Shown: in pieces, positions 9,158 through 45,844 of the stretch | How positions within the stretch are numbered: the first letter of the stretch is position 1 | Layout: every line of letters begins with the position of its first letter | Assembly: GCA_020161655.1 (NCBI GenBank) | Contig: JAIUPC010000024.1 | Coordinates: forward strand, 124,001 to 188,000 | DNA: 64,000 nt | From: Pseudomonadota bacterium | Lineage (GTDB): Bacteria > Pseudomonadota > Alphaproteobacteria > Rhodobacterales > Rhodobacteraceae | Direction: 5' to 3' | Translations under genes and position numbers: made by a program | Notes under the pieces: model-generated | Told to the model about the DNA's origin: nothing | Seen by the model: the letters and a program-made list of their open reading frames with translations, nothing else | Database searches by the model: none

Positions 9158-11029
9158 TCACCCCGCCCGCTTCATCCCCATCACCCGCGCCCTTGCCCGG
9201 GGATCGCTGTCGAAGAGGCTGGCGAGTTGTTCGGTCATGGCGCCGGCAAGCTGTTCGACATCGGTGATGGTCACGGCGCGCTGGTAGTAGCGGGTCACAT
9301 CATGGCCGATGCCGATGGCGATCAGCTCGACGATCTTCCGGCGCTCCACCATGGCGATCACGTCGCGGAGATGCTTTTCAAGGTAGTTGGCCGGGTTGAC
9401 GGAAAGGGTCGAATCGTCCACCGGCGCGCCGTCGGAAATCACCATCAGGATGCGGCGCTGTTCGGGACGGTTCAGCATCCGGCGATGCGCCCATTCCAAG
9501 GCCTCGCCGTCGATGTTTTCCTTCAAAAGCCCTTCCTTCATCATCAGCCCTAGGTTCGGCCTGACCCGCCGCCACGGCGCGTCGGCGGATTTGTAGATGA
9601 TGTGGCGGAGGTCGTTGAGCCGCCCCGGCTGCTGCGGGCGGCCCTGTGCCAGCCATTTCTCGCGGCTCTGGCCGCCCTTCCAGGCGCGGGTGGTGAAGCC
9701 GAGGATCTCCACCTTCACCTGGCAGCGTTCGAGCGTCCGCGCCAGCACATCGGCGCAGATAGCGGCGATGGAGATGGGGCGACCGCGCATGGAGCCGGAA
9801 TTGTCGAGAAGGAGCGTGACGACGGTATCGCGGAACTCGGTGTCCTTCTCGACCTTGAAGGACAAGGGCGTCGTCGGGTTGGCGACGACCCGGGCGAGAC
9901 GACCCGCGTCAAGAATGCCTTCCTCAAGATCGAACTCCCAGGACCGGTTCTGCTGCGCCTGCAACCGGCGCTGGAGCTTGTTGGCAAGGCGGCTGACGGC
10001 ACCCTTCAGCGGCTCAAGCTGCTGGTCGAGATAGGCGCGCAGGCGTTCCAGTTCAGCCGGTTCGGCGAGCTCCTCCGCCTTGATTTCCTCATCGAAATCC
10101 GTCGCATAGACGGTGTAGTTGGGGTCCGCGTCGGAATAGGGGGCAGGGGGCGGTGGCTCCAGGGGTGCCTCGCCCTCGGGCATCTCGGCCTCCTCGCCAT
10201 CCTCCATGTCCGAAAGCTCGTCCATGGAGACCTGGGCCTCGGACTGATCGTCCTGCTCTTCCTGGCTGCGCTCCGGCTGGGCGTCGCTGTCGTCCGGTTC
10301 CTCCTGGCCTTCCTGGCTTTCGGAATCGTTCTCCTGCTCCTCGCTTTCGGCGCTGTCGCCCTCATCCTCGTCCTGAAGGTCGGGGTCGTCGCCAAGCTGG
10401 TCGCCGTAGCCGAGGTCCTTGATGACCTGGCGGGCGAGGCGGGCGAAGGCGGTCTGGTCGGCGAGGACGTCCTTCACATGGTCGAGCGTGCCGCCCGCCT
10501 GTTCCTCCATGAAGGGCTTCCAGAGGTCCATGACATGCTGCGCCGCGCGCGGCAGGTCGCGCCCGGTGGCAAGGTGACGGACGAGATAGCCGGCGGCCTG
10601 CGGCAAGGGTGCGTCCTGCGCCTGCCGGATGGCGCCATAGCCGCGCCGTTCTGCCTCGGCGCCGATCTTGGCGTCGATATTGCCGAGCGTGCCGGGCATG
10701 TCGCGGGCGCCCACCGCCTCGCAGCGCGCGGTTTCCATGGCGTCGTAAAGATCGCGCGCCATCTGGCCCTGCGGCATGTATTTCGCGGCGATGGCGTCGT
10801 CGTGGAAGCGGTGGCGGAGCGCGAAGGCATCCGCCGTGCCGCGCGCGATCAGCACCTCATCCCGCGTCATCCGGCGCGAGACCTGCGGCAGCCGCATGGT
10901 GTCGCCGGCCATGCCGGGCGGATCGACCGAATAGGTGACGGTCAGCTCCGGGTCGTCGGCCATGGTCTTGGTGGCCTCGGCGAGGGCCTTCTTGAAGGGA
11001 TCTGCGGGGTTGTCGGAGGGGCGGGTCAT
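9158..11029 (-). CDS. cobT: aerobic cobaltochelatase subunit CobT
   Basis: CobT is the VWA-domain subunit of the ATP-dependent cobaltochelatase (CobNST), which inserts cobalt into hydrogenobyrinate a,c-diamide in aerobic B12 synthesis. This 623-aa product has an N-terminal helical part, a strongly acidic linker ([16 protein letters not shown] and similar runs, positions about 10205-10400), and a C-terminal von Willebrand A domain with the MIDAS motif DNSGSMRG. It ends with a helical tail ([17 protein letters not shown]). I chose ATG 11029 ([16 protein letters not shown]) over GTG 11044. CobS, its AAA+ partner, lies upstream on the same strand but is separated by a RAYT transposase. CobN is not in the window. 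Confidence 0.96.
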
Positions 11030-11071
11030 GTGCCGATAAATCACCCGGCGAGGGGGAAAGGCAAGGCGGAT

Positions 11072-11581
11072 TCAGCGCATTGGTGCGCTGGCGTTTTCGG
11101 TAGGATGGGCAATATTGCCCATCCTACGGGTGAAGCTGGAATAGGGCCAATGCTCCGGTTCGTGGACAAGCCCGTGCTTCACCGGGTTCATGTGGCAATA
11201 CTCCATCGCACGAATGAACTCGGCTTCGTCGCGCAGGGCGTGCTCCCAGAATCGGCGCTGCCAAAGCCCGCGTTCGCGTTTCGCCTGCTTGCTGGGGGAT
11301 GGTCGGAAATCGCCTGCGACCGAGTGCGAAAACCGCGCCTTGATGCGGCGCCAGCGTTCCGGAAAGTTCGCCTCGCCTTCGGGTTCGGTCCAGATGGCGT
11401 GGATATGGTCGGGAAGCACGACCATGGCGTGGCAGGTTACGGGAAATTCCAGAAGGGTGCGCCGGTAGGCTTCGCGGAGGTGGCCGATATGGTCGGTCAG
11501 CGTCCGGGTGCCGCGATCTTCGACGCAGACAGTGAAGAAATAGGTGGCGCCGGGCAGGCGCAGGCGGCGGTAGCTGGTCAT
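11072..11581 (-). CDS. REP-associated tyrosine transposase (RAYT, TnpA_REP / Y1_Tnp)
   Basis: RAYTs are single-strand-specific HUH nucleases related to IS200/IS605 TnpA that recognise REP hairpins. This 169-aa protein shows the N-terminal strand GATYFFTVCVEDRG, the HUH pair H59/H61 in LPDHIHAIW, the conserved block LWQRRFWEHALRDEAEF, and the catalytic tyrosine Y128 in MEYCHMNPVKHGLV, followed by HWPYSSF. All catalytic residues are present, so the enzyme could be active. The last 19 residues (from TRRMGNIAHPT on) are encoded by the downstream REP palindrome plus flank, not by a normal RAYT C-terminus. It lies between cobS and cobT in the same orientation. Confidence 0.93.
   Translation of the reverse strand: MTSYRRLRLPGATYFFTVCVEDRGTRTLTDHIGHLREAYRRTLLEFPVTCHAMVVLPDHIHAIWTEPEGEANFPERWRRIKARFSHSVAGDFRPSPSKQAKRERGLWQRRFWEHALRDEAEFIRAMEYCHMNPVKHGLVHEPEHWPYSSFTRRMGNIAHPTENASAPMR
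11100..11131 (+). repeat. REP palindrome, perfect copy (3' end of RAYT)
   Basis: This is a perfect 28-bp palindrome whose left half is GTAGGATGGGCAAT, followed by the asymmetric tail GGGT. It is identical over 32 bp to the copy at 11628-11659, and to the reverse complement of 45813-45844. The GTAG foot is the tetranucleotide typical of RAYT-recognised REPs. On the minus strand it is translated as part of the transposase C-terminus. Confidence 0.93.
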
Positions 11582-11627
11582 GCCGCCAGGCTGGAGGGGC
11601 CTTGGTTAAACCGGAGTTAACGAGGGC

Positions 11628-11659
11628 GTAGGATGGGCAATATTGCCCATCCTACGGGT
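11628..11659 (+). repeat. REP palindrome, perfect copy (3' side of cobS, upstream of RAYT)
   Basis: A second perfect GTAGGATGGGCAAT palindrome with tail GGGT lies in the same orientation as the copy at 11100. It begins 1 nt beyond the cobS TAA stop, so it would form a hairpin at the 3' end of the cobS mRNA. It may affect transcript ends or stability. Confidence 0.93.
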
Positions 11660-11660
11660 C

Positions 11661-12644
11661 TTAGCGAATGCTCTGGCTCGCAGCGCTCTCCGGCAGTTCC
11701 TCGTCAAAGCAGCGCTGGTAGAACTCGGCCACCGTCTGCCGCTCCAGTTCGTCGCATTTGTTGAGGAAGGTCAGGCGGAAGGCGTAGCCGATATTGCGGA
11801 AGATCTCGGCGTTCTGGGCCCAGTTGATGACCGTGCGGGGGCTCATGACGGTGGAAAGGTCGCCGTTCATGAAGGCGGTGCGCGTGAGATCCGCGACCGT
11901 CACCATCTGGGAGATCTGCTTCCGGCCCTTGTCGGTGTTGTAATGCGGGTTCTTCGCCAGAACGATGGCGGTCTCCGCATCGTGGGACAGGTAGTTCAGC
12001 GTCGCCACAAGGCTCCAGCGGTCCATCTGCGCCTGGTTGATCTGCTGGACGCCGTGATAAAGCCCGGTGGTGTCGCCAAGGCCCACGGTGTTCGAGGTCG
12101 CAAAGAGGCGGAAGGACGGGTGCGGGGTGATGATCTCGTTCTGGTCGAGAAGCGTCAGCTTGCCGTCATGCTCCAGCACGCGCTGGATCACGAACATCAC
12201 GTCCGCCCGCCCTGCGTCGTATTCGTCGAAAACGATGGCGACGGGATTGCGCAGCGCCCAAGGCAGGATGCCCTCGTGGAACTCCGTCACCTGCTTGCCG
12301 TCGCGGAGCTTGATCGCATCCTTGCCGATGAGGTCGATCCGGCTGATGTGGCTGTCGAGGTTCACGCGGACGCAGGGCCAGTTGAGATGGGCCGCGACCT
12401 GTTCGATATGGGTGGATTTCCCGGTGCCGTGATAGCCCTGGATCATGACGCGGCGGTTGTAGGCAAAACCAGCGAGGATGGCGAGCGTGGTGTCCGGGTC
12501 GAACTTGTAGGTCTGGTCGATCTCCGGCACGCGGTCGGTGCGGTCGGCGAACCCCTTCACCTTCATCTCGGTATCGATGCCGAACATCTCCCGGACGGAG
12601 ATTTCTTCGGTGGGTTTCGCGTGTTGATCGAGCATCTCAGTCAC
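11661..12644 (-). CDS. cobS: aerobic cobaltochelatase subunit CobS
   Basis: CobS is the AAA+ ATPase of the CobNST cobaltochelatase. The 327-aa product has Walker [11 protein letters not shown], Walker [12 protein letters not shown], a sensor-1-like [11 protein letters not shown] and an arginine-rich end ([22 protein letters not shown]). These match CobS, which is distinguished from other MoxR-like ATPases by SVREMFGID near the N-terminus and by its cobT neighbour. The start is taken at GTG 12644 ([14 protein letters not shown]), and ATG 12635 is a possible alternative. There is no strong Shine-Dalgarno for either. The gene would be first in a cobS-RAYT-cobT transcription unit. Confidence 0.94.
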
Positions 12645-44961: not shown

Positions 44962-45019
44962 GGGTTATTGACCCAAGCGGGGGAGGGCGGTACCGCTGGC
45001 GCAGCCAAAAGGGGTGCCC

Positions 45020-45820
45020 ATGTCCGTCCTCTCCGACGCCGAACGATCTGAAATCATTGCAACAGCCCACGCGCTCGCCGATGCGGCGCGCGTGGAGACG
45101 CTGAAGCATTTCCGCAGCGACGGCCTGTCCGCCGACAACAAGGAAACCCACCGCTTCGATCCGGTGACGGTGGCCGACCGCGCCTCTGAAAAGGCGATGC
45201 GGGCGATCCTTGCCGCGCGCCGGCCCCTGGACGCGATTTACGGCGAGGAATTCGGGGCAACCTCCGGCACTAGCGGCCTGACCTGGGTGCTCGACCCGAT
45301 CGACGGCACGCGGGGCTATCTCTCGGGCACGCCGACCTGGGGTGTCCTGATCTCGGTCGCCGATGAAAGGGGGCCGGTCTTCGGATTGATCGACCAGCCC
45401 TATATCGGCGAGCGCTTCATCGGCGGCTTCGGTCTGGCGGAAGTCACGGGCCCGATGGGCCGCCACGCGCTCCGCTGCCGCGCCGCAAGACCCCTCTCCG
45501 AGGCGATCCTCTTTTCCACCTTCCCCGAGGTCGGCACCGATGAGGAAGGGGCCGCCTTTCGCCGCGTCGTGCCGAAGGTGCGGCTGACGCGCTACGGCAT
45601 GGATTGCTACGGCTATGCCCTCGTCGCCGCCGGCCAGATCGACCTCGTGATCGAGGCCGGGCTGCAGGCCTATGACGTGCAGGCGCCGATCGCCGTCATC
45701 GAGGCGGCGGGCGGCGTGGTCACCGACTGGCAGGGCCGCCCGGCGCCGCAGGGGGGCCGCATCCTCGCCGCCGCGAACCGGGAAGTTCATGCCGAGGCGA
45801 TGGCGCTTTTGAACCCGTAG
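45020..45820 (+). CDS. hisN: inositol-monophosphatase family protein, likely histidinol-phosphatase HisN
   Basis: This 266-aa Mg2+/Li+-sensitive phosphatase fold protein. The metal site is visible in YGEEFGATSG, WVLDPIDGTRGYLSG and YDVQAPIAVIEAAGGVVTDW. The combination DPIDGTRGY and the C-terminal INREVHAEA-like tail (ILAANREVHAEAMALL) match alphaproteobacterial histidinol-phosphatases (HisN-type) better than SuhB. Inositol monophosphatase activity cannot be excluded. The TAG stop (45818-45820) lies inside a REP palindrome, so the last codons and the repeat overlap. ATG 45020 is used, although the GTG at 45014 is in frame. Confidence 0.85.
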   Translation: MSVLSDAERSEIIATAHALADAARVETLKHFRSDGLSADNKETHRFDPVTVADRASEKAMRAILAARRPLDAIYGEEFGATSGTSGLTWVLDPIDGTRGYLSGTPTWGVLISVADERGPVFGLIDQPYIGERFIGGFGLAEVTGPMGRHALRCRAARPLSEAILFSTFPEVGTDEEGAAFRRVVPKVRLTRYGMDCYGYALVAAGQIDLVIEAGLQAYDVQAPIAVIEAAGGVVTDWQGRPAPQGGRILAAANREVHAEAMALLNP

Positions 45821-45844
45821 GATGGGCAATATTGCCCATCCTAC
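45813..45844 (-). repeat. REP palindrome, perfect copy (hisN 3' end), reverse orientation
   Basis: The same 28-bp palindrome as at 11100 and 11628 (half-site GTAGGATGGGCAAT), with the conserved tail on the left here (ACCC at 45813-45816), so it is inverted relative to those copies. The hisN stop codon TAG is the second to fourth base of the repeat. It lies about 34 kb from the RAYT gene. Confidence 0.93.

Follow-up and report, generated by a model that had tools for sequence, protein, structure and literature searches.

The 64,000-nt stretch of Rhodobacteraceae DNA analysed here (the window) very probably carries a resident RAYT–REP pair, in which a REP-associated tyrosine transposase (RAYT) is fixed behind cobS and would handle a 28-nt palindrome. 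This reading is carried by observations on the anatomy of the locus, the clade to which its RAYT belongs, the history of the cobS site, and the association of palindrome copies with one RAYT branch.

The RAYT gene and its neighbours

The window contains a RAYT open reading frame flanked by the vitamin B12 genes cobS and cobT, the three being transcribed in the order cobS, RAYT, cobT (Table 1). The first-pass annotation had recognized the RAYT from H59, H61, and Y128 in this ORF, and both a profile and a structure match agree with it. The protein scores 178.5 bits against the NCBIfam profile REP_Tyr_transpos (NF047646; cut-off 80), which covers residues 4-148 and leaves the final 21 residues outside the match, and it can be aligned over residues 1-162 with TnpArep (PDB: 4er8; E 3.8e-33). 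We find all residues expected of a RAYT/TnpAREP protein, namely the HUH histidines, the catalytic tyrosine, and an asparagine after the tyrosine, with H59 and H61 unchanged across 33 aligned RAYT sequences. Similarly, GT[AG]G-footed REPs both adjoin the gene and are dispersed through the genome. The separation of cobS from cobT by the RAYT, also claimed at first pass, is confirmed by the coordinates and the profile-named neighbours.

The window RAYT falls below the cut-offs of the IS200/IS605 profiles (PF01797, 20.2 bits with a cut-off of 23; NF033573, 14.9 bits with a cut-off of 55). Multiple transposed copies, a trait of IS200/IS605 elements, were not found in its genome, which holds this one copy and one further RAYT at 47-49% identity. 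We note that the reading frame of this second RAYT (L019; C8:126140-126700) includes, between HuH and Tyr, two GTAGGTCGGGG REPs in inverted arrangement. In-frame REP pairs of this kind, which has been published (PMC6006769), are present in 7 of the 16 genus RAYT loci scanned. With at most 1 mismatch, the GTAGGTCGGGG REP itself has 11 copies in the genome of the window, and 8 of the 22 genus genomes contain it. At another locus (L161), the RAYT is followed by seven hairpins that bear foot tags and share one sequence type, in steps of ~54 nt, ~460-810 nt from the RAYT start.

Table 1. Features of the RAYT locus and REP copies in the window
Feature	Coordinates	Strand	Remarks
RAYT / TnpAREP gene	11072..11581	-	169 aa; H59, H61, Y128, N132; from ORF list, profile and PDB matches
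cobS (site neighbour)	11661..12644	-	CobS_N and AAA_5 profiles
cobT (site neighbour)	9158..11044	-	CobT and CobT_C profiles
Downstream 28-nt double-foot REP	11100..11127		in RAYT frame, encodes RRMGNIAHPT
Upstream 28-nt double-foot REP	11628..11655		between cobS stop and RAYT start, 6 nt past cobS stop
Third REP copy in window	45817..45844		foot is the TAG stop of ORF 45014-45820(+)

The 28-nt palindrome

The same perfect 28-nt palindrome, GTAGGATGGGCAATATTGCCCATCCTAC, is found at both sides of the RAYT. With GTAG/CTAC at both of its ends, it corresponds to the "double foot" REP type of PMC6006769 (as far as the available text of that study defines it). In single-stranded form it adopts a hairpin whose stem has 12 bp and whose loop has 4 nt (-12.7 kcal/mol, z -7.47). 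When up to 3 mismatches are allowed, the 4.08-Mb genome of the window yields 31 copies, of which 11 are exact, and the reversed control pattern 0; together with the z score of the fold, these counts rule out chance. The genome-wide count proposed at first pass thus places copies of the palindrome well beyond the RAYT locus.

The two identical 32-nt stretches reported earlier are indeed present (11100-11131 and 11628-11659), but the GGGT tail that distinguishes them from the palindrome is not a feature of the REP. The flanks of all 31 copies reveal no conservation past the 28 nt, and GGGT is found on either side in 3 of the 31 copies, 2 of which are the RAYT pair (by eye); the conserved unit is the 28-nt palindrome. 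The "direct orientation" ascribed to the pair has to be abandoned as well, as a perfect palindrome has none. With regard to the inverted REPs of a REPtron, the window palindrome is perfect and hence orientation-free, and its flanks are unconserved, while the REP pair of a relative (G003) would count as inverted if judged by its short flanks. Finally, the REPs had been said to bracket the RAYT: one is located on each side, but the downstream copy lies inside the gene, where its reading, RRMGNIAHPT, forms a segment near the RAYT C-terminus.

Association of the palindrome with one RAYT branch

We surveyed 22 genomes of the genus and 12 genomes of other relatives for the palindrome, a count of zero referring to this 28-nt sequence only. 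In the genus, it is abundant in three genomes (31 copies in that of the window, 12 in G003, 20 in G011), present as a single copy in G010 and G013, and absent from 17. Among the other relatives, L088 (34 copies), L089 (12), and L091 (23) carry the palindrome on both sides of their RAYT at 1 mismatch or fewer. At up to 2 mismatches, five genomes have it on both RAYT sides (that of the window, G003, L088, L089, and L091), with 12-34 copies each. The G003 RAYT, located behind cobS, is 75% identical to that of the window. Both palindromes occupy the same two positions in L018, L051, L088, L089, and L091, the proteins being 64-75% identical to the window RAYT.

Other relatives hold fewer copies or different REPs. 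L090 has 2 copies, and the REPs beside its RAYT carry another loop; L094 and L096 have 5 and 10 copies, with 2-3 mismatches where listed, which are of the GTAGGGTGGGC type that adjoins their RAYTs. The palindrome search returned 0 copies in L093 and in L092, L109, L111, L115, and L117, that is, in 5/5 sampled cobS-site genomes whose RAYT lacks the catalytic tyrosine. The REPs of L092 share the GTAGGATGGGC half-site and have a longer loop, which the 28-nt pattern would miss.

Palindrome copy number follows this RAYT branch, an association and not proof of handling. Some genomes speak against the pairing. No RAYT of the cobS-site clade (described below) was found in G010, G013, or the 84% complete assembly of G011 with its 20 copies; the cobS–cobT site of G011 is not visible because its contig breaks off within cobS and cobT turned up only as a fragment. 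In L091, whose RAYT bears Asp in place of the catalytic residue, the genome nevertheless contains 23 copies, so that REP copies either persist after RAYT activity is lost or are independent of it.

REP copies at gene ends

The position of REP copies relative to genes was determined using a gene finder with a simple codon-usage model, trained on seven window genes. In the genome of the window, 14 of the 31 copies give a neighbouring gene its TAG stop from their own foot and 14 are located <20 nt past a stop, while 2 are read through (one being the RAYT's own) and 1 is far from a stop. In five genomes, where counts outside the training genome are rough, 90 of the 109 counted copies were examined: 29 supply a stop, 47 lie 2-19 nt past one, 4 are read through, and 10 are far. 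Of the 19 copies left out, 11 belong to G011 and six are RAYT-flanking ones (the pairs of G003, G315, and G316); the other two are a G003 copy lying at the end of a contig and a further copy of G315. Supplying a stop or lying 2-19 nt past one thus applies to 76/90 copies, compared with 225 of 17,000 random 28-nt sites in the same loci.

Neither in-frame REPs within RAYT genes nor REP feet as stop codons are new, as both have been published (PMC6006769, PMC3733652). The accessible text of the latter reports REP termini as TAG stops of flanking ORFs, and that of PMC12306157 reports REPs shortly behind stop codons. In the genome of the window, two genes running toward each other on opposite strands both take their TAG stop from a single double-foot REP (L008; C23:44068-44095). 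The third REP of the window (45817), compared across 19 genomes, is present in that of the window, decayed in G011, and missing from 17. Exact insertion ends sought at this REP across the 19 genomes were not obtained, the gaps being too diverged.

This enrichment is what one would expect if the RAYT and the REPs were unrelated neighbours, the palindromes gathering at gene ends and acting as mRNA 3′-end hairpins instead of RAYT substrates. We consider such a coincidence quite unlikely, since the five loci L018 to L091 named above agree in where their two palindromes lie, including the one read in frame at the C-terminus, and since copy number tracks this RAYT branch. Moreover, one and the same palindrome could serve at mRNA ends and also be copied by a RAYT.

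Age and history of the cobS site

Screening of 132 loci with RAYT hits for their position relative to cobS and cobT reveals a RAYT between the two genes in 8 loci (the window, G003, L089, L090, L109, L111, L115, and L117). In L088, G303 (L167), and G097 (L168), the RAYT is located behind cobS with no cobT within the stretch covered, which for L088 includes the following 4 kb; in L168, ~0.8 kb lies between cobS and the RAYT. The contig of L092 shows the cobT side only and brings the cobS-site total to 12 loci. In a tree of 30 RAYTs, these 12 loci and L091 form one clade (100/99), which a quick tree of 118 RAYTs recovers with a support of 99. Identity to the window RAYT within the cobS-site loci ranges from 75% down to 50%. 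Since one clade holds the site in 12 loci and down to 50% identity, we conclude that the RAYT is an old and mostly immobile resident.

In a family sample of 295 genomes, 64 contain a RAYT at E 1e-30 or better, and four of the 30 best-hit loci of this sample are at cobS (the genome of the window, G003, G303, and G097). Within the genus, 19 of 22 cobS–cobT junctions were readable: 2 have a RAYT, 7 are short (39-104 bp), and the other 10 are longer (355 bp to >1.5 kb) and without RAYT, several of them holding an ORF that resembles an Asp/Glu racemase (by eye). RAYT-free sites in relatives, for which the first-pass annotation had suggested a search, thus exist. In a CobS tree of 15 chosen rows, RAYT presence requires five changes. 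A single ancient entry with repeated loss is the simplest account, and the segment may also have been exchanged between lineages.

We note three further observations at this site. In G014 (L043), which has no RAYT behind cobS, a lone GGATGGGC...GCCCATCC palindrome directly follows cobS, and in G019 (L024), likewise without RAYT there, an inverted pair of a different REP (GTAGGGCGGGG) is found; the gap behind cobS may draw REPs, or the G014 palindrome may be a relic. The third concerns the record of L088 (CP059262.1), titled Exiguobacterium profundum, which encodes a CobS 94% identical to that of the window together with a RAYT of this alphaproteobacterial clade, and whose name looks wrong.

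Probable relocation of one RAYT

The L091 RAYT is a member of the cobS-site clade that is located between lpxB and mnmA (gene names assigned to the translations by eye). Its two palindromes occupy their usual places, and the cobS–cobT gap of its genome is ~145 bp long and RAYT-free. CobS of L091 groups with CobS of L090 (97/93), and the L091 RAYT with those of L088 and L090 (86/90). These groupings favour a move within the lineage, which would explain the position of the L091 RAYT better than a horizontal origin. An AU test of the arrangement in which the 12 cobS-site RAYTs exclude L091 gives p 0.058, so that nesting of L091 is likely and not certain. In any case, L091 demonstrates that a REP–RAYT–REP unit can move; with Asp in place of Tyr, its present RAYT may no longer cut.

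The view at first pass, that the REP–RAYT–REP segment of the window is a whole mobile unit recently landed between cobS and cobT, draws on the REPs on both its sides, on the RAYT-free gaps in the genus, and on the L091 unit with the RAYT-free cobS–cobT gap of its genome, but is highly unlikely in view of same-clade RAYTs at the site in 12 loci (50-75% identical to that of the window), the single copy of this RAYT in the genome, and one move among 13 members. Part of this view survives, namely a RAYT with REPs on both sides and a unit capable of moving, while a separate landing event in this genome does not. Recent insertion as the main account was accordingly rejected on the cobS–cobT junctions, the 12-locus clade, and the 50% divergence.

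A branch without the catalytic tyrosine

Of the 132 loci, nine were dropped for lack of a readable ORF of 140-259 codons, and the remaining 123 aligned RAYTs are a sample biased to intact genes, with 5/123 being identical duplicates. At position 128, 105 of these have Tyr, 10 have His, and 5 have Phe, with single occurrences of Asp, Arg, and Cys, while His is found in 123/123 at position 59 and in 122/123 at position 61. Six of the ten His RAYTs form one branch within the cobS-site clade, a sister to the branch with the palindrome (L092, L168, L109, L111, L115, and L117; 100/99). In this branch the Asn is kept in 6/6 and the ORFs are intact. No REP was seen in the inspected RAYT flanks of L109, L111, L115, and L117, and L092 and L168 retain palindromes or remnants with the GTAGGATGGGC half-site.

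Pairwise dN/dS amounts to 0.14-0.40 in the His branch (15 pairs, six members) and to 0.17-0.37 among the other seven RAYTs of the clade including L091 (21 pairs), rough values in both cases as dS reaches 2. In a neutral simulation without indels, the chance of remaining stop-free is 1-5% per lineage. A scan for REP-like hairpins beside RAYTs detects them in 60/105 Tyr, 4/10 His, and 8/8 other RAYTs, and in 0/220 control stretches; loss of the tyrosine alone is therefore not coupled to loss of REPs. The 118-protein tree requires 13 changes between Tyr and non-Tyr and 5 between His and non-His. Tyr-to-His replacements are also found outside the cobS-site clade (L099, L100, L112, and L171), with REP-like hairpins still beside 3/4.

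One tentative interpretation of the His branch, judged from sequence, is a RAYT domesticated away from REP processing: after one Tyr-to-His swap, the presumed metal ligands (HUH His, Asn) would have been kept and the gene selected at the same site, with REPs invisible in 4/6. Such a protein would be a binder of single-stranded DNA or hairpins, perhaps acting on cob genes, or else an enzyme with a His nucleophile. We take the branch as a pointer to a domesticated RAYT that may have lost cleavage. In the literature, Y-to-F forms serve as catalytic mutants (PMC8266576), and PMC6006769, by its available text, retained only proteins bearing both motifs (722/924). Our literature search found no paper on a Tyr-to-His branch, although publication elsewhere is possible, and a search combining cobS, cobT, transposase, and REP found no paper on this locus by title.

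Proposed mechanism and implications

By analogy with characterized relatives, we propose that binding, cleavage, and copying take place at this locus and that the palindrome would be the window RAYT's own substrate. The RAYT, a TnpAREP-family HUH endonuclease acting on single-stranded DNA, would (I) bind the hairpin of the 28-nt palindrome in such DNA, (II) cut near the GTAG foot through Y128, and (III) thereby cause the palindrome to be copied or moved to new places, where new copies would persist chiefly at gene ends. An ancestral RAYT would have entered the gap behind cobS, with later retention there, numerous losses, and one or more moves. The downstream palindrome additionally encodes the end of the RAYT.

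According to PMC8049555, RAYTs are domesticated transposases that occur in single copy, pass on vertically, and have an exact function yet to be found. The cobS site offers a natural series in this respect, comprising a Tyr RAYT with REPs, RAYT-free sites, a relocated RAYT, and RAYTs that lack the tyrosine, some with REP remnants and others without. This series allows one to ask what a host retains of a RAYT after the REPs vanish, and the L091 genome whether REP copies persist beside a Tyr-less RAYT. The most unexpected finding is a branch in which the gene is retained although its tyrosine and, in some members, its REPs have gone, and it merits another look.

Comparison with known systems

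Like the E. coli TnpAREP (PDB: 4er8) and its REPtron, the window locus combines a HUH and Tyr core with REPs beside the gene. However, E. coli REPs have bulged stems and an unpaired GTAG (PMC8266576, from the text available), whereas the window REP is a perfect palindrome in which GTAG can pair with CTAC, and the window RAYT, unlike the E. coli TnpAREP, has a REP-encoded C-terminus. The arrangement of Nunvar 2010 (PMC2817692, in part) similarly consists of two REPs flanking a RAYT and copies dispersed in the genome, but with an inverted REP orientation that is undefined for the perfect palindrome of the window.

Subclass 2.4 of TnpAREP (Quentin 2018, PMC6006769), as characterized in the accessible portion of that work, shares with the window double-foot REPs and REPs in frame in the transposase gene. 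In contrast to the window RAYT with its in-frame REP at the C-terminus, the subclass has this REP between HuH and Y, and of its motifs NH[IFV]H, WQ, and YIxNNP, only WQ fits the window protein (DHIH, WQ, YCHMNP). Rhodobacter and Paracoccus are absent from the main text of Di Nocera 2013 (PMC3733652), which in the part available describes, as in the window, REPs that overlap the 3′ end of the transposase gene ("3′ov") and TAG stops provided by REP termini. In sum, the window locus belongs to a known type: its resident RAYT is accompanied by double-foot REPs, and one of these encodes the end of the protein.
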